Assembly: GCA_017477325.1 (NCBI GenBank)
Contig: JAFUWV010000009.1
Location: forward strand, 1-64,000
DNA from: Paludibacteraceae bacterium
GTDB taxonomy: Bacteria; Bacteroidota; Bacteroidia; Bacteroidales; Paludibacteraceae
Length of the DNA stretch: 64,000 nucleotides
Reading direction: 5' to 3'
In this document: positions 7,075 through 64,000 of the stretch, piece after piece
Layout of the letters: each line of letters starts with the position of its first letter
How positions within the stretch are numbered: position 1 is the stretch's first letter
Made by a program: the position numbers and the translations under genes
Notes under the pieces: model-generated
The model's database searches: none
Told to the model about the DNA's origin: nothing
Seen by the model: only the letters and a program-made list of their open reading frames with translations

Positions 7075-8052
7075 TTATTCTGCATTCAGGGTGTCGCAGG
7101 CATCGGGGTCTGCGGCAGCGGATTTCTCATAGGAAGCCGTTCCGACACCCGTGCCGTTTATCGCGTTCACTTGCGCTTTGGCTTCTGACTCGGTGCCCCA
7201 GTAATACGCAACAGAGGTCTGCCCCATGACGGTGGATGTGATTTTCCAGCAGGCTTCCTCACCTTCCGTCGGATTGCTATTTTCTTTCAGCTCGTTGCAG
7301 GCGTCTTCGTCTTTGGCGTCTGCCTCAGAGTAAGTATATTGGAGACCCATCTTGTCAAACTCTTCATTCAGTTGCCGCTCTGTCATCCAAACATAATTGG
7401 TAATATTCATGCCATAGGCGCTTTGGATAACTTGCCAGCATTTGTACGTAGTGTTGTCAAACTTGCTATAGTCTTTAGGCTGATCGGGATTGCCGCCCGG
7501 ATTGTCTTCTCCGTTCAACGCATCACATGCCTCTTCATCAGCGGCAGCTGCACGTTTGTAGCTGTGCGTCACACCTTTGGACTGATAGTAATCATGACGC
7601 TCTTTCATGTTTTGCTCCGGCATCCAGCCATAAGTTGTTTCCGATTGTCCGCCTGCGCTCATGGTCTCTTCCCAGCATTCAGCGCCTTCCCATACCTTTT
7701 TATGGCATGCGTCTGCGTCGTTGGCTTCAGCCTCCGTGTACATCACTTTCTTGGTTTGTTCGCCCGCAAACTGTTCGTCCATGGCGAGAAGCATCTTGGC
7801 GATGGCGCCCACTTGGGCTTCAGTGCCCCATTCGTACTGACGGCTGATGGTTGTGCCGTCGCACCATAGATCAATGGCCCAGCATTTGTAATCCTTGTCG
7901 TCCATAATGGACAAATCAATCTGGTCGGCAGATGTAATCCACTCGCCCGGCTCGGCGGGTTGGTCTGCCGGTTTGTTCTGATTGCAAGCATTGAAGAATA
8001 CCACGCTTGCCATGCACAGAAGTGCTACATAAAATCTTTTCATACTTTTCAT
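7075..8052 (-). CDS. Lipoprotein with four CW...AC repeats
   Basis: 325 residues, lipobox Cys in VVFFNACNQNK. After a short linker the protein consists of four repeats of about 60-70 residues. Each opens with Cys-Trp (KCWAID, ECWEET, KCWQVI, ACWKIT), continues with a W/Y-containing turn before a charged position (YEWGTE, YGWMPE, YVWMTE, YYWGTE), then a Y-x-x-A block and an end D-x-x-AC. The paired first and last Cys of each repeat could form a disulfide. I do not recognise this repeat as a named domain. A 20-residue Asn/Gly/Pro linker separates repeats 2 and 3. It is the first gene of a two-gene operon with the FISUMP protein. Confidence 0.8.
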   Translation of the reverse strand: MKSMKRFYVALLCMASVVFFNACNQNKPADQPAEPGEWITSADQIDLSIMDDKDYKCWAIDLWCDGTTISRQYEWGTEAQVGAIAKMLLAMDEQFAGEQTKKVMYTEAEANDADACHKKVWEGAECWEETMSAGGQSETTYGWMPEQNMKERHDYYQSKGVTHSYKRAAAADEEACDALNGEDNPGGNPDQPKDYSKFDNTTYKCWQVIQSAYGMNITNYVWMTERQLNEEFDKMGLQYTYSEADAKDEDACNELKENSNPTEGEEACWKITSTVMGQTSVAYYWGTESEAKAQVNAINGTGVGTASYEKSAAADPDACDTLNAE

Positions 8053-8165
8053 ATATTTAAATTAGTAAGTTGCGTGTTGTATTTACACGAAACAGTGAGA
8101 AATGATGCTAATATGATACTAATATATTTGAATCAGGAAGTATAATCAATACCTGAAATTCTGTA

Positions 8166-8196
8166 CAAAGTTACTGCTTCTTAGTTACTCATACAA
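8166..8196 (-). promoter_or_regulatory. Promoter for the repeat lipoprotein/FISUMP operon
   Basis: Minus-strand TAACTTTG (plus CAAAGTTA, 8166-8173) fits the -7 element, with TTG (plus CAA, 8194-8196) 20 bases upstream. The leader before the ATG at 8052 would be about 105 bases. Confidence 0.5.
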
Positions 8197-8308
8197 TACT
8201 TTATATCAAAAACCCCCATTTGGGGGAGTCGGAAAATATTAGAAATTTTGTTCAATTTTCTTATATACTATGAGGGAAATTAAAGGGAGATATGTGATAT
8301 TGATTAAA

Positions 8309-8351
8309 GATGGATGATTGTGTTGCAGAAGATGGATGATTGTGTTGCAGA
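8309..8351 (+). repeat. Two tandem copies of a 22-bp unit
   Basis: A 21-base sequence starting GATGGATGATTGTGTTGC occurs at 8309-8329 and again, identically, at 8331-8351 (period 22). It lies upstream of the rimP promoter and could be a protein-binding site pair or a simple duplication. Confidence 0.8.
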
Positions 8352-8426
8352 TGAGGATAAAAACAGCGATGAAAAGGTGTTTTTGAGTGAAAAGTGCGTA
8401 TTTTTAATAAAATAGTTACAAAATAG

Positions 8427-8457
8427 TTGCAGGAATGGAAAATTTGTTGTACTTTTG
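8427..8457 (+). promoter_or_regulatory. Promoter of the rimP-nusA-infB operon
   Basis: TACTTTTG at 8450-8457 matches the -7 consensus, and AGTTG at 8425-8429 supplies the -33 TTG with 20-base spacing. Transcription would begin near 8464, leaving a leader of about 150 bases before the rimP start. Confidence 0.6.
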
Positions 8458-8472
8458 CAGCATGAATTGAAA

Positions 8473-8492
8473 AGGGGGCCAGTTGGTTCCCT
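8473..8492 (+). promoter_or_regulatory. Hairpin at the 5' end of the rimP leader
   Basis: AGGGGGCC (8473-8480) pairs with GGTTCCCT (8485-8492) over 8 bp, two of them G-U, around an AGTT loop. It starts about 10 bases after the predicted transcription start, so it may stabilise or regulate the message. It lacks a T-tract, so it is not a terminator. Confidence 0.45.
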
Positions 8493-8611
8493 TCTTTGTT
8501 GCGAAAGAGCCGTGTTGAAGGATTGACGGAGAGAGGTGGGGGAACATGGCACGACAAAGGCGAGTGATAGTATATATAAAGGAGATTGACAATAAATATA
8601 AGGTTAAATAT

Positions 8612-9076
8612 ATGATACAAAAGGAAATAGTGAGAGAGATAGTAGAGAAGTATCTCGAAGGCAAAAAGTATGAGTTGGTTGATGTGCATGTATCCAATCA
8701 GAATGAGATTCAGGTGGAGATTGATGCATTTGAAGGAGTGGATGTTGACTTTTGTGCAGAACTGAACCAGTATATACAGTCGCAACTTGACAGAGACGTG
8801 GAAGACTATGAGTTGGAAGTAGGTTCGGTGAGCCTGACTGCTCCATTCAAAACGCTGATGCAATACCAGAAGAATGTAGGTCATGACGTAGAAGTATTGG
8901 GTAAGGACGGCAAGAAATACAGAGGAGTGCTGGTGGAGGTGAATGACGATGACTTCTCGATTGACGCAGAGGTATTGGAGGCTGTGGAAGGCAAGAAGAG
9001 GAAGCAAAAGGTGGTTAAGACACTAAATTTCAAATACTCAGATGTGAAATATACAGTGTATGACCTGAAGATATAG
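8612..9076 (+). CDS. rimP: Ribosome maturation factor RimP
   Basis: 154 residues from the ATG at 8612. An in-frame upstream start exists at 8546, but family members begin close to MIQKEIVREIVEKYLEG, so the shorter form is chosen. RimP binds the free 30S subunit and is needed for its maturation. Visible features are the N-terminal alpha/beta domain with the VDVHVSNQNEIQVEID strand pair and E-G-V-D acidic loop, then the C-terminal SH3-like barrel (VEVLGKDGKKYRGVLVEV). The order rimP-nusA-infB is the standard bacterial arrangement. A 266-base spacer to nusA suggests a second promoter. Confidence 0.93.
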   Translation: MIQKEIVREIVEKYLEGKKYELVDVHVSNQNEIQVEIDAFEGVDVDFCAELNQYIQSQLDRDVEDYELEVGSVSLTAPFKTLMQYQKNVGHDVEVLGKDGKKYRGVLVEVNDDDFSIDAEVLEAVEGKKRKQKVVKTLNFKYSDVKYTVYDLKI

Positions 9077-9287
9077 CGGCGGAACGGGTGAGTGTTAAAA
9101 AATGTTAACAGGAGTGAGGAAATGTAAACGGAGGAGTATGCTTACCGCTTCGTAACACTTTGCTTAGAGATTGCTTGACGAGAGCGGGGCGTGATGTTAG
9201 GATTTGCGAGGGGATTTATTAAGGAATATTAAAACATAAGAATGTGAGTTATCACGACAATTACACTGAAATTATACTGATACAGAA

Positions 9288-9305
9288 TATGAATTGATAT
9301 TCATA
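9288..9305. promoter_or_regulatory. Inverted repeat upstream of nusA
   Basis: TATGAAT (9288-9294) and ATTCATA (9299-9305) form a 7-bp inverted repeat with a 4-base centre, 38 bases before the nusA start in the 266-base spacer. Its size suits a dimeric regulator's operator, but no regulator can be named. Confidence 0.35.
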
Positions 9306-9342
9306 CAAAAAGAACAAATAATCATAATTAAAATAAATAGCA

Positions 9343-10596
9343 ATGGCAACAAAGAAACAATCAACAAATTTGATTGACACATTCAGCGAGTTTAAGGAAC
9401 TCAAGAACATTGACCGTCAGACATTGATTAACGTTATGACCGATTCGTTCCGTAACGTTATAGCAAAGATGTACGGTTCGGATGCGAACTACGACGTGAT
9501 TATCAACCCCGACAAGGGCGACTTGGAAATCTATCGCAACCGCGTGGTGGTGGCAGATGGCGAGTTGAAGAATGAGAACACTGAGATTGAACTGAAGGAC
9601 GCGCTACTGATAGACGACGAGTCAGAAGTAGGCGAGGAAGTGACCGACAAGGTTGATTTCACCCAGTTCGGCAGGCGTATGATACTGAATCTGCGCCAGA
9701 CGCTGGCAAGCCGAATACTTGACCTGCAAAAAGAGAACCTGTATCTGAGATACAAGGATATGCTGGGTCAGGTGGTAACAGGCGAACTGTATCAGGTATG
9801 GAAAAAGGAAATGCTGCTATTGGACGAGGACGGCAACGAGCTGTATCTGCCGAAGCAAAACCAGATTCCGACGGATTTCTACAGAAAAGGTGACGTGGTG
9901 AGAGCGGTTGTCGTATCTGTTGAGAACAAAAACCAGAACCCGAAGATCATCCTGTCGCGCACATCGCCTCTGTTCCTGCAGAGACTGTTCGAGCAAGAAG
10001 TGCCGGAAGTACACGACGGACTGATAGCAATCAAGAATATCGCCCGTGTTCCTGGTGAGCGTGCGAAAGTTGCAGTGGAGAGTTTTGACGAGCGTATCGA
10101 CCCCGTGGGTGCGTGCGTAGGTATAAAAGGAGCCCGTATTCACGGTATAGTCCGTGAGCTGAGGAACGAGAATATAGACGTTATCAACTACACGAGCAAC
10201 ATCAATCTGTACATACAGCGTGCACTTGCTCCGGCGAAGATTTCATCGATGGAAATCAATGAGGAGGAGAAGCAGGCCAATGTATATCTGAAGCCCGACG
10301 AGGTAAGTCTGGCAATCGGCAAGGGCGGCTTCAACATCCGTCTGGCATCGATGCTGACCGGCTATCAGATAGACGTGTTCCGCGAAATGGACGAAGAAGA
10401 CACAGAAGATATCTACCTGGACGAGTTCAACGACGAAATCGACCAGTGGGTACTTGACCAGTTCAAGGCAATAGGACTGGATACCGCCAAGTCGGTGCTC
10501 GGCGAGAAGAAAGAAGAACTGCTTCGCCGCACGGATCTGGAAGAAGAGACCATAGACGAAGTACTGAAAGTGCTTGCTGCGGAGTTCGCGGAGTAA
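9343..10596 (+). CDS. nusA: Transcription termination/antitermination factor NusA
   Basis: 417 residues. NusA binds RNA polymerase and nascent RNA and modulates pausing, termination and antitermination. In order: N-terminal polymerase-binding domain (about 1-125), S1 domain (about 135-210, with VTGELYQVWKKEMLL and GDVVRAVVVSV), then KH1 and KH2 (about 225-380, with RVPGERAKVAV, GVKGARI-like CVGIKGARIHGIVREL, and AIGKGGFNIRLAS). The C-terminus has one short helical extension (SVLGEKKEELL). The E. coli AR repeats are absent, as expected outside Proteobacteria. Confidence 0.96.
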   Translation: MATKKQSTNLIDTFSEFKELKNIDRQTLINVMTDSFRNVIAKMYGSDANYDVIINPDKGDLEIYRNRVVVADGELKNENTEIELKDALLIDDESEVGEEVTDKVDFTQFGRRMILNLRQTLASRILDLQKENLYLRYKDMLGQVVTGELYQVWKKEMLLLDEDGNELYLPKQNQIPTDFYRKGDVVRAVVVSVENKNQNPKIILSRTSPLFLQRLFEQEVPEVHDGLIAIKNIARVPGERAKVAVESFDERIDPVGACVGIKGARIHGIVRELRNENIDVINYTSNINLYIQRALAPAKISSMEINEEEKQANVYLKPDEVSLAIGKGGFNIRLASMLTGYQIDVFREMDEEDTEDIYLDEFNDEIDQWVLDQFKAIGLDTAKSVLGEKKEELLRRTDLEEETIDEVLKVLAAEFAE

Positions 10597-10597
10597 T

Positions 10598-10639
10598 GGT
10601 TACGGGTGACTGGTTACTGGTTACTGGTTACCGGTTACA
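10598..10639 (+). repeat. Six tandem heptamers between nusA and infB
   Basis: Directly after the nusA stop codon come GGTTACG, GGTGACT, GGTTACT, GGTTACT, GGTTACC and GGTTACA. This is a local heptamer array of the kind found in many spacers of this window. The reverse complement (AACC-rich heptamers) occurs at 38228-38305 and 40728-40866. Confidence 0.9.
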
Positions 10640-10696
10640 GGGGAAAATAAGAAGTCAAATAACAAAAGTAGAACACAACACAACCAATCACAGAAT

Positions 10697-13447
10697 ATGG
10701 CAATAAAACTGATCAAAGCATGTAAGGAACTGAACATCGGAATGTCCACAGCTGTTGAGTTTGCAGCAAAACACGGCAAGGAAGTCGCAACCGATCCTAA
10801 CACAAGGATAGACGACGACCTGTACCTGTTGTTAGCCAAAGAATTCAACAAGGATATGGCATTGAAGATGGAGGCTGAGCGCATGCAGCAGGAGCGTCAG
10901 GAGAGAGAGATACCTCAGACCCTGACCGTAGAGCCTGAGCAGCCGAAAGAGCCTGAGAAGAAGACCGTACCTCAACCGAAGGTGGTGGGCAAGATAGACC
11001 TCAATCCGAAGAAGAAAAAAGCGAAAGAGGAGACCGAGCCCCAGCCGGTGGCAGAAGAGCCCAAGCCTAAGAAGACTGAGCCAAAAGCAGAGAAGGTTGA
11101 GCCTCAACCGGAAGTGAAGGCCGAGCAGGAGCCTGAAGTCAAACCAGAGCCCAAGCCGGAAGTGAAGGAAGAGCCCAAGCAGCCTGTTGAGCCAGAGACC
11201 AAGCCAGAAGAAGTGATTGCAGAGGAACCAAAGAAGGCTCCCGAGGTGTTCACATTAGGCAAGCCTGTACTGAAGAAGGCTCCGAAGGTGGTAGGAAGAA
11301 TAGACCTCGACACCCTGAACCAGCAGACTCATCCTACAAAGAAGACGAAGGAGGAGAAAAAGCAACTGCGCGAGCAACGGAAACAGCAGATGGGCGGCGG
11401 AGCTCCGAAGCCGGAAGATGCAGCAGGAGGCGGAAAGCGCAAACGCGAACGCATCAGAAAGGACAAGGTAGACGTAAACAATCCGGACTTCAAGAAAGGC
11501 GGAAAGGCGGGCAAATCGAAGAAGCCAATACGCGTGGAAGTGGACGACGAGGAGGTACAACGCCAGATAAAAGAGACGCTGAACCGCATGCAAGCCGGCA
11601 AGGGCAAGAGCTCGGGTGCGAAGTACAGAAAGGAGAAGAGGGAGAACATACGCCACCATCAAGAAGAACTGCTCGAGCAAGAGGCAGCACAATCGAAGGT
11701 ATTGAAACTGACAGAGTTTGTTACGGCAAACGAGTTGGCGACAATGATGAATATCTCTGTAAACCAAGTCATTGCTACATGTATGTCGCTCGGACTGATG
11801 GTAAGCATCAACCAGCGACTGGACGCAGAGACAATCAACATTGTGGCCGAAGAATTCGGTTACACGACAGAATACGTGAGTGCCAAGGTTGTGGAAGACA
11901 TAGGTGACGATGATGACAACAATCCTGAGGATCTGGTGCCGAGATGTCCGATTGTGACAGTGATGGGCCACGTGGATCACGGTAAGACTTCACTGCTTGA
12001 CCACATCAGAAACACGAACGTGATAGCCGGTGAGGCAGGCGGTATAACCCAGCATATAGGTGCGTACAACGTGCGCCTGAAGAACGGTCAGCACATCACC
12101 TTCCTTGATACTCCCGGTCACGAAGCATTTACGGCGATGCGTGCCCGCGGTGCCAAAGTGACAGATATAGCGATTATTATCGTAGCAGCGGACGATGCCG
12201 TGATGCCTCAGACTGTAGAGGCGATAAATCACGCCCAGGCAGCAGGTGTGCCCATGATATTTGCGATAAACAAATGTGACAAGCCCGGTGCCAATCCGGA
12301 CAAGATAAAGGAGCAGCTGAGCAACATGAACATCCTTGTAGAGGACTGGGGCGGCAAGTATCAGAGTCAGGACATAAGCGCCAAGAAAGGCGACGGCGTG
12401 TTCGAACTGCTGGAAAAGGTACTGCTTGAAGCAGAACTGCTTGAACTGAAAGCCAACCCGAAACGCAAGGCAAAAGGCTCTATAATAGAGTCATCGCTTG
12501 ACAAGGGCAGGGGCTATGTGGCTACCGTGCTGGTCAGCGACGGCACACTGCACATGGGTGACATAGTTCTTGCAGGAACAGCACACGGCAAGATAAAGGC
12601 TATGTTCAACGAGCGCGGCCAGAGAATAAAAGAGGCCAAGCCGGGCGAGCCTGCACTGATACTTGGTCTGAACGGTGCTCCCCAAGCAGGTGACGAGTTC
12701 AATGTGATGGACACCGAACAGAAAGCCAGAGAGATTGCGAACCGACGCGAGCAACTGCAGCGCGAGCAATCAATCAGAACAAAGAAACACGTAGGTCTGG
12801 AAGAGATAGGCCGCAGACTGGCAATAGGTGACTTCAAGGAGCTGAACATCATCGTCAAAGGTGATGTGGACGGCTCGGTAGAAGCATTGTCGGACTCGCT
12901 GATAAAACTCTCCACAGAAAACATACAGGTGAACGTGATTCACAAGGCAGTGGGTGCAATATCGGATTCAGATATATTGCTTGCCGAGGCCTCGGACGCT
13001 ATCATCGTAGGTTTCCAAGTGCGCCCGACGGCTACAGCCAGAAAGATGGCAGAGAAAGAGGAGATAGACATACGTCTGTACTCGATTATCTACGACGCAA
13101 TAGAGGAAATCAAAGCCGCTATGGCAGGTATGCTTGCTCCGGAGCTAAAGGAGGAAGTGACAGCAACATTGGAAGTTCTTCAGACCTTCAGAATCACGAA
13201 GGTGGGTACCGTAGCCGGTTGCATAGTGCGTGAAGGCAAGATCAAACGTACGAACAAGGTTCGCGTAATCCGCGATGGAATCGTGATACACACCGGTGAC
13301 CTGGCATCGCTCAAGCGTGAGAAGGACGACGTGAAGGAAGTAGGTGTGAACACGGAATGCGGTTTGAACCTGAAGTCATATAATGATGTGGTGGAAGGCG
13401 ATATAATAGAAGCATTCGAGGAAGTTGAAGTTAAGAAAGAGCTTTGA
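10697..13447 (+). CDS. infB: Translation initiation factor IF-2
   Basis: 916 residues. IF-2 is the GTPase that brings initiator tRNA to the 30S subunit and promotes subunit joining. It has a short N-terminal IF2-N fold (first ~50 residues), then a long low-complexity Lys/Glu/Pro-rich linker (about 70-310), a second IF2-N module ([17 protein letters not shown]), and the G domain with G1 GHVDHGKT near residue 424, GGITQH, DTPGH, NKCD and SAKKG. Domains II-IV and the tRNA-binding C-terminal domain follow. The linker is long, as is usual in Bacteroidetes. No terminator is visible after it, so the downstream cluster may be co-transcribed. Confidence 0.97.
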
Positions 13448-49272: not shown

Positions 49273-49680
49273 ATGAATATACAAGAACCAAAAATTATCG
49301 AACTACCAAAAATTCTAGATGAACGAGGCAATTTGTCATTTATTGAACAAAATAACCATGTGCCATTTAAGATAAAGCGTGTTTATTGGATTTACGATGT
49401 CCCTGGAGGAGAATCTAGAGGAGCACATGGATATCGCGAAAACGAAGAATTTGTGGTTGCATTGAGTGGTAGTTTTGATGTATTAATAGATAATGGAAAA
49501 GAAAAAAAGTCCTTTCATTTGAATCGATCCTATTATGGATTATATGTGCCGAAAAACACTTGGCGCATGATGGATAACTTTTCCACAAATTCGTTGGCAT
49601 TAGTACTATCTTCCACTGACTATGATATTAATGATTACATATTTGATTATGATAATTTTATAAAAGGAGTAGATAGATGA
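49273..49680 (+). CDS. FdtA/WxcM-type sugar ketoisomerase-like cupin 1, divergent
   Basis: 135 residues of the WxcM/FdtA cupin family, which isomerise dTDP-4-keto-6-deoxyglucose to the 3-keto sugar on the way to amino-deoxy sugars. Blocks DERGNLSFIEQ, VYWIYDVPGGESRGAH and LNRSYYGLYVPKNTWR fit the family. The active-site pair His-x-His (GAHAHK in the two paralogues nearby) is GAHGYR here: His52 remains, but the second His is Tyr54, and the following Lys is Arg. It may have another activity or be inactive. Overlaps the next cupin gene by ATGA. Confidence 0.85.
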   Translation: MNIQEPKIIELPKILDERGNLSFIEQNNHVPFKIKRVYWIYDVPGGESRGAHGYRENEEFVVALSGSFDVLIDNGKEKKSFHLNRSYYGLYVPKNTWRMMDNFSTNSLALVLSSTDYDINDYIFDYDNFIKGVDR

Positions 49681-50093
49681 AGAAACCAACTGTATATGAT
49701 TGTAGCGTTGTAGAACTACCCAGGTATCATGATCCTGAAGGGAATCTTACTCCAGTTTATTCCAATTTCCATGTGTCATTTGATATTAAACGAGTTTTCT
49801 ATTTATATGATATTCCTGGAGGAGAATCAAGAGGAGCTCACGCACATAAAATTTGTCATCAGTTCCTTGTCGCTGCTAGTGGCGCATTTGAGGTAGTACT
49901 AGACGATGGAGTTAACAAACGTACTATAACGTTAAATCGTCCGTTCTATGGTTTGCATATTCCTCCAGGCATTTGGGCTGCGGAACAAGGTTTCTCCTCA
50001 GGTTCTGTATGTTTAGTATTAGCAAGTGAACCATATGAGCCTGATGAATACATTCGTGATTATAATACTTTTATAGAATTTAGGAATTTATAG
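49677..50093 (+). CDS. FdtA/WxcM-type sugar 3,4-ketoisomerase cupin 2
   Basis: 138 residues. Same family as its upstream neighbour but with the complete active site: SRGAHAHK with His55 and His57, DPEGNLTPVYS and LNRPFYGLHIPPGIW. Expected reaction: dTDP-4-oxo-6-deoxy-D-glucose to the 3-oxo form. The genes for making dTDP-glucose and the 4-keto sugar (rmlA, rmlB) and the aminotransferase that follows in the pathway are not in this window. Confidence 0.87.
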   Translation: MKKPTVYDCSVVELPRYHDPEGNLTPVYSNFHVSFDIKRVFYLYDIPGGESRGAHAHKICHQFLVAASGAFEVVLDDGVNKRTITLNRPFYGLHIPPGIWAAEQGFSSGSVCLVLASEPYEPDEYIRDYNTFIEFRNL

Positions 50094-58052: not shown

Positions 58053-58139
58053 TGCTGTGAAAATAATTGTTATACTATAATTGTGAGATAAGAGAGGTCT
58101 TTTCTTCGAAGCATATCTCAACTCTAATAATTCTTGGTA

Positions 58140-58577
58140 ATGAAACGCACCACCATAGACGATTGCCATCTCATTGATCTACGCAAAATCTCCGACCCGC
58201 GTGGTAATCTCACCCCAATTGAGGGTGGAAAAGATATTCCCTTCGATATCAAACGTGTATATTATCTTTATGATGTACCGGGAGGAGAAAGTCGTGGAGC
58301 ACATGCACATAAGCAGTTATATCAACTCATTATTGCTGCGAGTGGTTCTTTCACGGTGACGCTTGATGACGGAACAAATAAGAAATCTTTCAATCTCAAT
58401 CGTTCCTATTATGGTTTGCTTGTTGTGCCTGGTATATGGCGCGACTTGGACGACTTCTCGTCAGGAGCTGTCCTTTTTTGCCTGGCAAGCGAACATTATG
58501 ATGCCTCCGACTATATCCGCGATTATGATGAGTTTTTGAAGTATAAAGGAGTGAAGGCTGAGCGAATTATTGAGTGA
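58140..58577 (+). CDS. FdtA/WxcM-type sugar 3,4-ketoisomerase cupin 3
   Basis: 145 residues from the ATG at 58140 (an in-frame TTG is two codons earlier). Complete active site SRGAHAHK with His55 and His57, DPRGNLTPIEGG and LNRSYYGLLVVPGIWR. It is closely related to cupin 2, but its gene has its own promoter and less AT-rich DNA, so it may be the older chromosomal copy. Confidence 0.87.
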   Translation: MKRTTIDDCHLIDLRKISDPRGNLTPIEGGKDIPFDIKRVYYLYDVPGGESRGAHAHKQLYQLIIAASGSFTVTLDDGTNKKSFNLNRSYYGLLVVPGIWRDLDDFSSGAVLFCLASEHYDASDYIRDYDEFLKYKGVKAERIIE

Positions 58578-58833: not shown

Positions 58834-60069
58834 ATGAAAGAAGAAAACGATTTATCAGAGCAGCCGCGTATAGTGAAATCTCACGACATACGTATTGATA
58901 CGGACTACGCGGAATGGATAGCCGAGTTAAAGCATCGGTACCGTTCGGCGCAAGTGAAAGCCTCTGTGCGCGTGAATGCGGAGAAGTTGCTCTTCAATTG
59001 GGAATTGGGATGTGACTTGGTGCAAAAGAAAGCAGAAGAACGTTGGGGCACAGGAGTAGTGGAGCAAGTCAGCCTTGATCTCCAACGCGAGTTTCCGAAT
59101 GCGGAAGGATTCTCTGCCAAGAACCTTTGGTTCATGAAGAAATGGTATCTGTTTTATTCATCTCCAGAGGCTCAAGAAAGACTCTACCAACTTGGTGGAG
59201 AAATAGAGACGGGAAAACTCTTACAGCCTGTTAGAGAATTACCCAACTCAAAACTCTACCAGCCTGGTAGAGAAATTCCAAATACAAAACTGCACCAGAC
59301 TGGTGCAGAATTTCCTGCTCCATTTGCATTAGTCCCTTGGAGACATCATGTAGAGATTATCTCCAAATGCAAATCCGTTGATGAAGCGTTGTTCTATATA
59401 GGTAAGACGATAGAGCAGGGGATGAGTCGTGCGGCATTGGTAAATTGCATCAAGGTAAACTTGTACGAACATCAAGGAAAGATACTCAATAACTTTGCAG
59501 AGCACATGCCTGCTTTGCAGAGTAAGCTGGTGCAAGAGGTGCTCAAGGAGAACTATGACTTCGGCTTCGCAACCGTGAAGCATGAGATTTACGATGAGCA
59601 GGAGTTAGAAGAAGCATTGAGCAAAAGTGTAACGGATCTTTTGTTGGAACTCGGAACCGGCTTTGCGTTCATTGGAAGACAGAAGGAACTGATAGCCGGG
59701 GATACGACGCGCAAGATTGATTTACTCTTCTATCATATCCGCTTGCGCTGCTATGTGGTGTGCGAACTGAAAGCTAAAGCTTTTGAACCGGAGTTCGCCG
59801 GGAAACTGAATTTTTACGTCAATGCAGTGGATGACTTGTTGAAAGCAGAGGAAGACAATCCAACGATAGGCTTGCTTATCTGTTCGGATATGAATAAGGC
59901 AGATGTTCAATGGTCATTTCGAGGCATCAGCACACCAATGGGAGTGGCAACATATAATAATGTACGCATCAAGGACATGCTTCCGACGCAAGAGCAACTG
60001 AAGGAACGCATGGAACTCCTGCAAAAAGAAATGCGTGAAACTAAACGATTAATGAAAGCAAATAAGTAA
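58834..60069 (+). CDS. DUF1016/YhcG PD-(D/E)XK nuclease with palindromic repeat insert
   Basis: 411 residues. The N-terminal DUF1016_N region (YRSAQVKASVRVNAEKLLFN, FSAKNLWFMKKWYLFYSS) precedes the nuclease domain with Asp295 in RKIDLLFYH and Glu311-x-Lys313 in VVCELKAKAF. YhcG proteins are accessory nucleases often found with restriction or defence genes. Residues 117-164 are four 12-residue repeats (LYQLGGEIETGK, LLQPVRELPNSK, LYQPGREIPNTK, LHQTGAEFPAPF) that normal members lack; see the repeat feature. The insert lies between the two domains, so the enzyme may be functional. Confidence 0.88.
   Translation: MKEENDLSEQPRIVKSHDIRIDTDYAEWIAELKHRYRSAQVKASVRVNAEKLLFNWELGCDLVQKKAEERWGTGVVEQVSLDLQREFPNAEGFSAKNLWFMKKWYLFYSSPEAQERLYQLGGEIETGKLLQPVRELPNSKLYQPGREIPNTKLHQTGAEFPAPFALVPWRHHVEIISKCKSVDEALFYIGKTIEQGMSRAALVNCIKVNLYEHQGKILNNFAEHMPALQSKLVQEVLKENYDFGFATVKHEIYDEQELEEALSKSVTDLLLELGTGFAFIGRQKELIAGDTTRKIDLLFYHIRLRCYVVCELKAKAFEPEFAGKLNFYVNAVDDLLKAEEDNPTIGLLICSDMNKADVQWSFRGISTPMGVATYNNVRIKDMLPTQEQLKERMELLQKEMRETKRLMKANK
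59182..59325 (+). repeat. Four in-frame 36-bp repeats, each with a 9-bp palindrome
   Basis: Units start at 59182, 59218, 59254 and 59290. Each begins with a 19-base inverted repeat of 9-bp arms around one base: CTCTACCAACTTGGTGGAG, CTCTTACAGCCTGTTAGAG (one mismatch), CTCTACCAGCCTGGTAGAG and CTGCACCAGACTGGTGCAG. Units 3 and 4 differ at two base pairs on both sides, preserving pairing. This shows selection or copying at DNA/RNA level inside a coding sequence. Confidence 0.92.
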
Positions 60070-60247: not shown

Positions 60248-61975
60248 ATGCAATACTACGAAAAATTTGAAACAGAAACAGGTCTTATAAGCAGATATTC
60301 TGCTGACAAGGCTTTTTTGATATGGGCAATGGGGCTTTATCTTGATATACAGGATTTAGAATCAATGGCCGATGATAATCTTACAGACAATGGGGATGAC
60401 CACGGCATTGATTTTCTTCGATATGATGAGGATGCTGGAGTATTATATTTGGCACAAGGCTACCATACAAACAAGGTTAAGCAGAGTGCACCAGCATCAA
60501 AAGCCGCCGACTTAAATGCCGCTTGTGCTTGGCTGATGAATGGAGAAATAGAAAGATTCAACCCTGAAATCCGCGAAAATATTATTGAAGCACGAACCGC
60601 AATATTAAATGATGATGTTCAGAAGATTACTCTTGTCTATGCACATAACTGCGGTGAGTCTGTTGAAGTCCATCAAGAACTTGAGATGGCTAAACAAACG
60701 CTTATCTCCTTGTTAGGCGAGAGGCAGATAGAAGTGATCTATATTGAGCTGGGTAATGAATCATTAGAAAGGATATTTCAAAATCAAGCAGCGAACATCA
60801 TTGTGACCGAGGATATTGAGTGCCCATTTCAAGTAAAATACACCGAGGAGGCAGGTATCTGGAAAGCGGCAATACTTTCTATTACAGGGCAATGGTTGCG
60901 AGAATTATACAATAGGTATGCAGGTGATCTGTTTTCCGCTAACTATCGCGGTTTTTTAGGTAATTCAAGACAGAGAATCAATAATGGCATCAAGGCAACT
61001 GCTGAAAGAGCTCCTAAGAATTTTTGGGCTTTCAACAATGGTATTACAATACTTACTACTCATATACAACAAAAGCCCGAAAAAACTACGCTTTCAGGGA
61101 TGGCAATCATCAATGGAGCACAAACAACCGGATCTATTGGTGCAATTCCGTTGTCTGTTGATTTGTCCGAGGTTAATATCCTTGCTCGCGTGATTGAATG
61201 TTCTGATCCCGAAACTATTAATTCAATTGTAAAGTTTAATAACACTCAGAACAAGATAACTGCATGGGATTCGTTCAGCAATGATCCTATTCAGATTCAA
61301 CTACAGGATGAGTTTAAACAACTCGGACATGAATATAATATTAAGCGTGGATTTAGCAACCGTGAAAGTATGCTTTCTGTAGAAGCGGCGTTGCAACCGT
61401 TATTAGCTATCTCAGGAAAATACAAGGATGCCAATCGAAGTAAAACCTATCTATTTGAGTCAAGGTCTCTTTATACTGAAGCATTCGAACATCGCGGTGC
61501 TCGCAATTTGTTATTTGCATGCTGCTTAAACACTTGCTTGCAAGTTATCAAATCAGAAAACAAAGAATTAGTAGAATTAGGTAGTTCTGAGGTTAGTGAA
61601 ACAGACAAGCAAACACGTAATGTACTTGCAGTTATTAAATTCAAATATTACATTATTAGTATTATTGCAGAGTCACTACATAAATTATTCAGTTCTCTTA
61701 TCGAGACTAAAAGGATTAGTTTTACGCCAGATTATGCAAAGTCAGTTGCTTATGATTATAACACTCTTGTCAACTTGCTAAAACCGATCGTTAATCTTAT
61801 GCTCCCTATTGTCGTAAAAGAACTGGGCGATGACTTCTATTCCAAGTATAATGATGCAACAACTGTGGATGCTATAGCGAGTAATGTTGAAACATCACTT
61901 AATTCGCTTAAGGCCATTTCTTCCGAAGTCCAGACAAAGTTATTAGAAATGGCCAATATGGTTTGCAATGGTTAA
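60248..61975 (+). CDS. AIPR-family abortive-infection-like protein
   Basis: 575 residues. The family (PF10592) is named for phage-resistance proteins such as AbiR-type and is common in defence islands. Typical blocks: NDGDDHGIDFLRYDE-like GDDHGIDFLRY, EDIECPFQVKY, NYRGFLGNSRQRINNGI, FWAFNNGITIL and INGAQTTGSIG near residue 289, VKFNNTQNKI and SMLSVEAALQPL. The N-terminal ~200 residues resemble a restriction-endonuclease-like domain with GIDFLRY...LAQGYHTNKVK in the place of a D...Q-x-K site. The mechanism of the family is unclear. Next genes on the same strand are the MBL module, 66 bases away. Confidence 0.85.
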   Translation: MQYYEKFETETGLISRYSADKAFLIWAMGLYLDIQDLESMADDNLTDNGDDHGIDFLRYDEDAGVLYLAQGYHTNKVKQSAPASKAADLNAACAWLMNGEIERFNPEIRENIIEARTAILNDDVQKITLVYAHNCGESVEVHQELEMAKQTLISLLGERQIEVIYIELGNESLERIFQNQAANIIVTEDIECPFQVKYTEEAGIWKAAILSITGQWLRELYNRYAGDLFSANYRGFLGNSRQRINNGIKATAERAPKNFWAFNNGITILTTHIQQKPEKTTLSGMAIINGAQTTGSIGAIPLSVDLSEVNILARVIECSDPETINSIVKFNNTQNKITAWDSFSNDPIQIQLQDEFKQLGHEYNIKRGFSNRESMLSVEAALQPLLAISGKYKDANRSKTYLFESRSLYTEAFEHRGARNLLFACCLNTCLQVIKSENKELVELGSSEVSETDKQTRNVLAVIKFKYYIISIIAESLHKLFSSLIETKRISFTPDYAKSVAYDYNTLVNLLKPIVNLMLPIVVKELGDDFYSKYNDATTVDAIASNVETSLNSLKAISSEVQTKLLEMANMVCNG

Positions 61976-62041: not shown

Positions 62042-63058
62042 ATGGCAAGAATTCACTTCCTAAATGTTAAAGAAGGAGATTGTTCAATCATCCAACATGA
62101 GAATGGTCCTGTAACTATGATTGATGTAAGTAATGCATTTATACCTCAAGTGGAAGATGCAGAATCTGCTGAAGTTATAGAGAAAGCATTTGCAGTTGAA
62201 GCACTAAAGGGTAATTATAATCAAAAAGCTAATCCTACTAATCCGATAGAATATTTAAATACCATTGGCGTAACAGAAATTTTTAGGTATATCCAAACGC
62301 ATCCGGATATGGATCATATGGATGGTTTAGCTGCTCTCCGGCGAAGTTTCCAAATTTATAATTTCTGGGATACAAAGAATAATAAACAAATTGAATGGCA
62401 TGCACCATTTGAAGGTGGGTATAAAAAAGAAGATTGGGATTGCTACCAGCAATTAAGAGTAAGCACTGCAAATCCCAAATCCTTATTTTTTGAAGATGGT
62501 GCTTGTGAAAAGTACTTTGCTAAAGATGATCATGATAATTTAAAACAAGATGATTATCTTGAAATCTTATCACCAACCTCTCAACTCATAACTTCAGCAA
62601 ATAATAATGGTGAATGGAATGATAGTTCCTATGTGATTTTATACCATATTCATGGGAGAAAGGTCTTGTTTTGCGGAGATGCAGGAGACCGCACAATTGC
62701 ACACTTACTGGAATTACACTCTGAAGCGATCAAAAATATAGATGTTTTAATTGCTCCTCACCACGGAAGAGATAGCGATAAAGATTTTGGTTTTTTAGAT
62801 ATAATGAAGCCAAAGATAACCTTGTTTGGAAACGCTGATTCTAAAGATATGGCTTACCAGCCATGGATTGACCGGAATTTGATAAAATTCACGAACAACC
62901 AAATTGGTGATGCTGTATTGGAAGTGTCGTTAAATAAATTTGCTATATATGTATCCAATAAATCATTTGTAGATGCATTTAGGTCAAAAAATAAATTTCA
63001 AGAAACTCAACCACATGTACTACTAAATGGAATGTGGTTATTATGGAAAATACAATGA
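62042..63058 (+). CDS. Metallo-beta-lactamase-fold hydrolase 1 (ComEC-like MBL)
   Basis: 338 residues from the ATG at 62042; a start at 62003 would add 13 non-conserved residues. MBL fold resembling the nuclease domain of ComEC and related stand-alone proteins: IHFLNVKEGDCSIIQ, metal motif THPDMDHMDG near residue 86, VLFCGDAGDRTIAHLLE and APHHGRDSDKD. The family hydrolyses phosphodiesters or related esters. Its stop overlaps the start of the next gene (ATGA at 63055-63058), so it is translationally coupled to a membrane protein. Confidence 0.87.
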   Translation: MARIHFLNVKEGDCSIIQHENGPVTMIDVSNAFIPQVEDAESAEVIEKAFAVEALKGNYNQKANPTNPIEYLNTIGVTEIFRYIQTHPDMDHMDGLAALRRSFQIYNFWDTKNNKQIEWHAPFEGGYKKEDWDCYQQLRVSTANPKSLFFEDGACEKYFAKDDHDNLKQDDYLEILSPTSQLITSANNNGEWNDSSYVILYHIHGRKVLFCGDAGDRTIAHLLELHSEAIKNIDVLIAPHHGRDSDKDFGFLDIMKPKITLFGNADSKDMAYQPWIDRNLIKFTNNQIGDAVLEVSLNKFAIYVSNKSFVDAFRSKNKFQETQPHVLLNGMWLLWKIQ

Positions 63059-63762
63059 AAAATAATTATTATTTATATGCTCGATTATTTCCGACAATAT
63101 TAACAGCAATCCCAATGATTGTGTTTTATGCGAATGTTATACATCCGATTGTGGAAAAGAATCTATCTGTTGTATGGGAATATCTGCCGATGTTGACTGA
63201 TATTTCGGTAAATGCTGCATTTATCTTCCTTTTAGTTATGGTAAATCGTTACTTGTCTAAGGTTATTTTTCAAAAATGTTATTTTGAAGACGAATTGAAA
63301 ATGCCAACAACAGAATGGTTACTTCCAAACTCAACAATATGCGATAAATCTACACGCAATAGGATATATCAATTGATACAAAAGGATTTGAATATAGATT
63401 TACGAAAAGACCTCAAATCGTTTCTTAATGAGAATGATAAGCGTAAACATGTTGCGCAAGTTGTAGGAATTATACGAAATGGGTTAAGAGACAATACTAT
63501 GTTACTGCAGCACAACATAGAGTACGGCTTTTTTAGGAATTTGATAGGAGGCTCAGTATTAGCTGTGTTGTTTTCGATTGGAATTATAGTAGTATCTACC
63601 TGTGATAATGATAATGGATTGTTATGGACAGGCATTGTGATGTTAGTCTTTTATATATTACCGATAGTTTTATCTAAACGTATCATTCGGGCTCATGGGG
63701 AAAACTATGCAAGTGTGTTTTTTAAAGAATACGAGAGTTCTAAAAAATCACAAACTTTATGA
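63055..63762 (+). CDS. Membrane protein with two pairs of helices
   Basis: 235 residues from the ATG at 63055, preferred over in-frame ATGs at 63034 and 63043 because it gives the same ATGA coupling as at the gene's end. Helices at about 10-30 (FPTILTAIPMIVFYANVI) and 45-65 (ISVNAAFIFLLVMVN). A ~100-residue cytoplasmic part follows (KMPTTEWLLPNSTICDKS, KDLKSFLNENDKRKHVAQVV), then two more helices (GGSVLAVLFSIGIIVVS, LLWTGIVMLVFYILPIVL). No named family recognised. Four-helix proteins coupled to a hydrolase are seen among phage-defence effectors. Confidence 0.78.
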   Translation: MKNNYYLYARLFPTILTAIPMIVFYANVIHPIVEKNLSVVWEYLPMLTDISVNAAFIFLLVMVNRYLSKVIFQKCYFEDELKMPTTEWLLPNSTICDKSTRNRIYQLIQKDLNIDLRKDLKSFLNENDKRKHVAQVVGIIRNGLRDNTMLLQHNIEYGFFRNLIGGSVLAVLFSIGIIVVSTCDNDNGLLWTGIVMLVFYILPIVLSKRIIRAHGENYASVFFKEYESSKKSQTL

Positions 63763-64000
63763 TTACAAAATACGAAATAGATTTTTTGAGTGTCAAAGAT
63801 GCAGATGCTATCTTAATTCATTTCGTTGATGATGTGTATGGAGAGAGGATTATAGCTATTGACGCTGGCAGATATAGTGACGGTGATATCGTGTCTTCTT
63901 TTGTTGAGAAGTATTATAAACGCAATTATATTGATATCGCAGTATGTACACACTGCGACGATGATCATTATGGTGGATTTGTAAAAATAATAGAAGAGCA
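63759..64000 (+). CDS. Metallo-beta-lactamase-fold hydrolase 2, cut by window end
   Basis: At least 80 residues, starting at the ATG that overlaps the upstream stop (63759-63762). It begins MITKYEIDFLSVKDADAIL, continues with IIAIDAGRYSDG and reaches the metal motif THCDDDHYGG. That is a second MBL-fold protein of the ComEC-like type, only distantly similar to the first. The rest is outside the window. Confidence 0.8.
   Translation, partial: MITKYEIDFLSVKDADAILIHFVDDVYGERIIAIDAGRYSDGDIVSSFVEKYYKRNYIDIAVCTHCDDDHYGGFVKIIEE

Follow-up and report, generated by a model that had tools for sequence, protein, structure and literature searches.

A small membrane protein of an unnamed family (4TM below) was found to be the constant part of a gene linkage in which a ComEC-type metallo-beta-lactamase-fold (MBL) hydrolase is the exchangeable part. 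Neither the 4TM partner family nor the exchange of MBLs around it is present in the libraries searched. In the window (the whole stretch of DNA that was analysed, being the first 64,000 bases of a contig of 84,397 bases) a single 4TM gene stands between two different MBL genes (Table 1). The reading we favour, with a probability of roughly 0.42, is that 4TM holds an MBL nuclease and triggers it upon infection, the pair forming a mobile and probably immune unit; its carriers are plasmids and, in the window, an inserted island.

Table 1. Features of the island and its left border (positions are those of the window unless given as contig positions)
Feature	Coordinates	Strand	Size and evidence
fdtA, left of the island	58134-58577		
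Inserted island, five genes	58551 to contig 65032	+	~6482 bp; between fdtA and the hexapeptide acetyltransferase gene
DUF1016/YhcG PDDEXK nuclease-type protein (PADLOC PDC-S02)	58834-60069	+	Pfam 1.1e-50, PADLOC 3e-123
AIPR family protein (AbiU/Abi-alpha-like)	60248-61975	+	Pfam 1.1e-29, PADLOC AbiU 2.4e-29, PHROG 1841 1.1e-93
MBL1, ComEC-type MBL-fold hydrolase	62042-63058	+	338 aa, motif THPDMDHMDG
4TM membrane protein, unnamed family	63055-63762	+	235 aa, four hydrophobic segments
MBL2, second ComEC-type MBL	63759 to contig 64781	+	340 aa, motif THCDDDHYGG

Two MBL genes around one membrane protein in an inserted island

A sequence-only reading of the window had described two distinct MBLs around a membrane protein, coupled by ATGA overlaps and lying behind AIPR and DUF1016 genes. 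Open reading frame coordinates, motifs and Pfam matches bear out this description (Table 1), and both junctions, MBL1/4TM and 4TM/MBL2, are ATGA overlaps. The window cuts MBL2; the rightward extension proposed by the same reading completes the gene, whose stop lies at contig position 64781.

The block is bordered on its right by genes for a hexapeptide acetyltransferase, a family-11 glycosyltransferase and a DegT aminotransferase (Pfam). These downstream sugar genes match by DNA in 12 of the 31 genomes of the genus, the window's own included, and the insertion site was checked in stretches of five of the matching genomes (G801, G806, G810, G791 and G816). The FdtA and acetyltransferase genes are adjacent in all four of the congeners G801, G806, G810 and G791 (tblastn), and in G816 FdtA stands beside DegT with no acetyltransferase gene between them. 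In blastn against G806 the alignment ends at window position 58550 and restarts at contig position 65033, two points that are 2 bp apart in G806 (flank identities 74 and 77 percent); G801 aligns by DNA on the downstream side only, and the island edges in Table 1 are as exact as these two alignments allow. Since the congeners keep the flanking genes adjacent and the G806 alignment leaves this gap, the five-gene block is an insertion. Its GC content is 37.5 percent (36.3 percent to the left and 45.3 percent to the right), and no integrase was found by Pfam among the five island proteins. The DUF1016 and AIPR genes are fellow passengers of the island, and their membership of the module is only putative.

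Two further features of the region were noted. The polysaccharide locus holds two FdtA-like sugar ketoisomerase genes, one at 49677-50093 and the Pfam-supported one at the island's left border. Outside the window, at contig ~74617-76069 (16617-18069 of locus L002), a gene pair resembles by eye the AbiEi/AbiEii toxin-antitoxin.

The 4TM family

Scans of 52 members (50 loci from GTDB contigs and 2 from viral contigs) gave no convincing match for the 4TM family in PADLOC, Pfam or NCBIfam, no sequence relative was found in the PDB, and no solved fold stands out for the 4TM model. The searches were seeded with two relatives from the order and with two plasmid records; because the scan of GTDB relied on one peptide pattern, it is biased toward well conserved members. 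The protein is rare among the window's kin, being present in 3/393 genomes of the order (two weak matches excluded) and 4/395 of the phylum, with the window's own genome included in both counts. By record, its hosts include Bacteroidota, Alpha- and Gammaproteobacteria, Actinomycetota, Cyanobacteriota, Bacillota and candidate phyla.

The AlphaFold2 model of 4TM is confident and all-helical (pLDDT 92.6, pTM 0.84). In the window protein, the hydrophobic segments span residues ~6-34, ~43-73, ~157-186 and ~186-213, with a domain of ~90 residues between the two pairs. Counted on the columns of the window protein and averaged over the family, the number of lysines and arginines is 2.7 at the N-terminus (12 columns), 15.0 in the centre (98 columns) and 4.1 at the C-terminus (30 columns), compared with 1.6 (19 columns) and 0.7 (9 columns) in the two short loops. 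This concentration of positive charges suggests that the central domain and both termini are cytosolic. Invariant in the 52-member alignment are Y5, R65, K69, P84, H153, N154, E156, Y157, G158, R161, N162, G165 and Y218.

Recurrence of 4TM with exchangeable MBLs

The search for conserved synteny that the sequence-only reading had called for showed that the linkage of an MBL with the membrane protein recurs across phyla and on plasmids. A ComEC-type MBL gene lies in the same gene run as 4TM at 67 of the 67 distinct loci found through 4TM, and the pairing is therefore not due to chance. These loci comprise 50 from GTDB, the viral locus L062, the window, L063 (genome G219), L009, L010, three from phylum-level genomes (L073, L074 and L085) and nine plasmid records (L075-L081, L083 and L084) opened out of the 42 that match the Rhodococcus 4TM member. 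The MBL is directly adjacent to 4TM in 50 loci (convergent in L010), and an E1-JAB-type gene separates the two in 17 (broken in L021). One operon, 6A-like in its make-up, contains a patatin-like phospholipase gene in addition (Pfam 9.9e-19): in L085 (genome G588; 7470-13046, minus strand) the genes are MBL, E1-JAB-type, patatin-like and 4TM. In all, a same-strand E1-JAB-type gene was recognized by profile in 22/67 loci, the gene being broken in L021 and truncated where the contig stops in L011. Another observation concerns L063, where a second E1-like gene (26 bits to the E1-JAB profile) with a 162-aa partner (11347-12988, minus strand) lies close to the MBL, E1-JAB and 4TM operon of the same genome, possibly two ubiquitin-like systems side by side.

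The partner MBLs span several deep clades and occur on either side of 4TM. With states labelled by hand on a 52-row 4TM tree, at least 10 changes are required to explain where the ubiquitin-like gene is present, and at least 16 to explain the arrangement classes. MBL partners are exchanged around 4TM.

The linkage was also approached from the side of the enzymes, the MBL2 query matching 41 plasmid records and the MBL1 query 16 records. Of five MBL2 records opened as such, three have 4TM beside the MBL (Rhodococcus, Curtobacterium and Acinetobacter); the other two hold a 207-residue membrane protein after the MBL (Vibrio) and a PADLOC M48A protein (Citrobacter). Among the MBL1 records, a 4TM gene is present in those from Runella, S. 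epidermidis and Rhodococcus p52 (opened as 4TM matches), the Staphylococcus nepalensis record has MBL pieces and another membrane protein, and no 4TM gene was found near the MBL1-type enzyme in Hymenobacter L064 or Methylobacterium L070. Thus 4TM was never without an MBL in this sample, whereas MBLs do occur without 4TM. The Vibrio (L065, 6074-6697) and S. nepalensis (L068, 4610-5209) membrane proteins beside MBLs are of another type; they are unrecognized by M48A models, and the 4TM profile gives E-values of 0.28 and 0.015, respectively.

The expectation that the trio itself would recur held for the arrangement and failed for the exact combination. MBLs lie on both sides of 4TM in 6 of the 66 other loci (L009, L024, L036, L040, L053 and L077), and in L009, L040, L053 and L077 an E2 or E1-JAB gene separates 4TM from one of its MBLs; the MBL1-4TM-MBL2 trio was seen, among the 67 loci, in the window genome only. 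The single occurrence, together with the fact that MBL1-4TM and 4TM-MBL2 are each common alone, is what one would see if two separate pairings had been stacked on one 4TM by chance and only one were functional. Such stacking, which is compatible with any of the mechanisms considered below, seems unlikely given ATGA coupling on both sides, intact metal motifs in both enzymes and the existence of two-sided loci with MBLs of other clades.

One of the two-sided loci, on Runella plasmid pRUNSL03 (L009, 6257-15619), is unusually rich: it carries an MBL, an E2/SEC-C gene, 4TM, an MBL1, a 136-aa membrane protein with weak similarity to M48A (2.3e-5) and an MBL paired with a trypsin-like protease, that is, three MBL genes of different classes within one plasmid run.

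The MBL enzymes

Pfam MBL models recognize MBL2 barely (24.2 with a cut-off of 22.7) and score MBL1 below the cut-off (E 0.01). Both enzymes match PADLOC PDC-M48B (2.8e-32 for MBL1 and 1.5e-34 for MBL2), membership being judged by the PADLOC E-value, and MBL2 also matches PADLOC LmuA (5.1e-33). The best structural match of the MBL1 model is the ComEC nuclease domain 9ic4 (E 5.8e-16, TM-score by target 0.76); the model is of middling confidence (pLDDT 77.7), with low-confidence stretches at 34-61, 122-125, 143-147 and 163-168, and its fold list also includes esterases, phosphodiesterases and, lower down, cAMP-binding MBL-fold proteins (7e3v, rank 25). On PADLOC, fold and motif evidence taken together, the identity of MBL1 as an MBL is secure. 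A profile of 17 MBL2 members finds 9ic4 at 4e-22, and the profiles of both clades return ComEC entries first.

The two enzymes are indeed different: a 62-row tree places them in separate clades (SH-aLRT 100 and 99), one of 13 rows for MBL1 and one of 17 rows for MBL2, whose branch is long, and the other 4TM-partner MBLs form further deep clades. Metal motifs are intact in MBL1 and MBL2, and those of MBL1 are invariant across 13 aligned members. HxxxDH is present in 58/62 MBLs from 4TM loci, and the later D and HH in 52/62 by a simple pattern; judged by these residues and the matches above, the MBLs of 4TM loci look active and ComEC-like. The enzymes without HxxxDH, three of them in partner position, are those of L037 (at 7144), L049 (at 978), L054 (at 7121) and L051 (at 1535); the L037 and L049 proteins read NYDHDH in its place, and all may be degenerate enzymes.

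Genomic context and a probable role in defence

By annotation, a restriction, Abi, SIR2, DUF262 or PDDEXK nuclease gene lies near 4TM in 7 of the 14 opened plasmid records; no defence-type neighbour was seen in the other 7, one of which has an antirestriction gene. An AIPR gene like that of the window is found ~5 kb from the 4TM-MBL pair in L039, and a DUF1016 gene nearby in L025. On the other side, ten chosen neighbours were scanned, of which two are clearly unrelated (a glycosyl hydrolase and a histidine kinase) and six are without family. From kinship and context, our best guess is that the 4TM-MBL linkage serves defence. Kinship with ComEC and carriage on plasmids would also suit a role in DNA uptake, plasmid competition or plasmid maintenance. 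We consider such a role quite improbable: no ComEC channel appears among the 25 of 44 Pfam families listed for 4TM members, and by Pfam none of the island's five proteins is a competence protein.

Proposed mechanism

In the favoured reading the MBL would be a metal-dependent DNase that the helical domain of 4TM between segments 2 and 3 keeps switched off on the cytosolic side of the membrane. An infection signal (phage DNA entry, membrane disturbance or, where that gene exists, a relay by ubiquitin-like conjugation) would alter 4TM, upon which the MBL would be released or activated; the active enzyme would then destroy DNA and halt the infection, probably at the cell's cost. One 4TM serving two MBLs, as in the window genome, could provide two outputs, or a spare that makes the system harder for phages to block. 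Several points weigh against an MBL nuclease effector: (i) nuclease activity of the MBL1 and MBL2 clades is only predicted, and the MBL1 fold list also holds esterases and phosphodiesterases; (ii) MBL1-type enzymes also occur without a nearby 4TM, as in L064 and L070; (iii) the island is without a protease, unlike the operons of the gated nucleases discussed below; and (iv) 4TM could be the killer itself.

If the last were true, 4TM would be a toxic effector, forming a pore or otherwise disrupting the membrane, and the MBL its regulator, which would hydrolyse a small ligand, modify 4TM, or restrain 4TM until a phage blocks the MBL. Abortive infection commonly pairs a membrane effector with a cytosolic enzyme. 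The invariant polar residues H153, N154, E156, Y157, R161 and N162 lie near segment 3, as would be expected of a ligand or partner site, the patatin phospholipase gene of one related operon sits between the E1-JAB and 4TM genes, and the cAMP-binding 7e3v at rank 25 of the MBL1 fold list would fit an enzyme acting on a small ligand. Nevertheless, this division of labour appears doubtful, since the variable side is the MBL, which resembles ComEC and Avs1a, families with nuclease activity, and since no cyclase or ligand-making gene was found by Pfam among the five island proteins.

A broader version of the nuclease reading, which we think rather unlikely, makes 4TM a membrane hub that serves ComEC-type nucleases in general; the module would be the immune counterpart of ComEC in split form, with swappable MBLs and an optional ubiquitin-like (6A) switch. 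As a hub, 4TM would present the nuclease to DNA at its entry point, and some hosts would load two different nucleases.

Comparison with known systems

The linkage joins three groups which have until now been listed apart, namely candidates that pair an MBL with a membrane protein, the ubiquitin-like operons of 6A-MBL, and the MBL nucleases found in Avs, Hachiman and Lamassu. Its nearest known relations are PDC-M48 and 6A-MBL. The supposition that the window module matches no known system needs qualification: the membrane partner and the MBL swapping are indeed absent from the libraries searched, but the MBLs match PDC-M48B, and 4TM is attached to operons that the NCBI 6A-MBL models accept.

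Like ComEC/Rec2, the module combines the MBL nuclease domain (9ic4) with a membrane part. It differs in consisting of separate genes, in having about four membrane segments and in the membrane part, where no sequence kinship was found: the window 4TM has no Pfam or NCBIfam match to the ComEC channel domain, and one of the 52 members gives an NCBIfam ComEC_N-term match at 0.035.

The gated MBL nucleases HamM, Avs1a and CanC, with their Lamassu and DRT kin, resemble the module in their ComEC-type MBL, which in their case lies in defence operons. According to PMC12799240, MBLs of this kind can be effectors closed by loops until protease cleavage; HamM and CanC, once cleaved by a partner protease, degrade DNA in vitro, and Avs1a cleavage takes place during infection. 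Their active-site loops are disordered, and the low-confidence stretches of the MBL1 model might be a counterpart. HamM, Avs1a and CanC require a trypsin- or caspase-type protease, whereas the window island shows none: no protease domain was found by Pfam in the five island proteins, and a profile of the Runella trypsin-like protein has no match in contig 58001-78000. In L009 the Runella MBL-trypsin pair stands next to an MBL-E2-4TM-MBL run.

Some 4TM loci likewise combine an E1-JAB-type gene with an MBL, as does 6A-MBL (NCBIfam NF058523/NF058524). Of three loci scanned with the cap2_3 model of 6A-MBL, L012 and L040 pass its cut-off and L025 fails (145 vs 320 bits), and the L040 MBL passes the MBL cut-off as well. 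The window MBLs score 23.7 and 42.8 bits with NF058524, below the cut-off of 220, and the E1-JAB profile finds no E1-JAB-type (cap2_3) gene in the ORFs of contig 58001-78000. The NCBI models cover the MBL and the E2-E1-JAB part, and the available part of the original account of the row 6a operon (Iyer 2006, PMC1779556) describes the MBL and does not mention a membrane protein. If 4TM is a shared component, an additional unnamed protein would count among the parts of some 6A-MBL operons, and 6A-MBL conjugation would have two candidate targets, 4TM and the MBL.

PDC-M48, a PADLOC candidate composed of a membrane protein (M48A) and an MBL (M48B), resembles the module in that a small membrane protein accompanies a ComEC-type MBL; the assignment of M48A to the membrane is our reading of the Citrobacter and Arsenophonus members. 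The PADLOC check suggested for the trio gave a divided answer: both window MBLs match this candidate and 4TM is unmatched. Two partner MBLs of other 4TM loci match PDC-M48B from end to end (343 and 477 bits). The window module differs in its two MBLs and in its membrane protein, which is larger than M48A (~235 aa and ~165 aa, respectively) and contains a long middle domain. M48A and 4TM might still be one superfamily beyond the reach of profiles, making the module PDC-M48 in all but name, and this would be compatible with any of the mechanisms above: both proteins are small, with about four hydrophobic segments, both stand beside M48B-type MBLs, and their N-termini are similar by eye. Such common descent is possible, if somewhat doubtful, since none of the 52 4TM proteins matches the M48A models at E up to 1, while these models do detect the Citrobacter protein (3.8e-44), and comparison of the 4TM profile with a profile of only three M48A-like rows (one of them short) gave a probability of ~2 percent. 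PADLOC already lists a candidate made of an MBL and a membrane protein, and the module in the window is a variant with a different membrane family.
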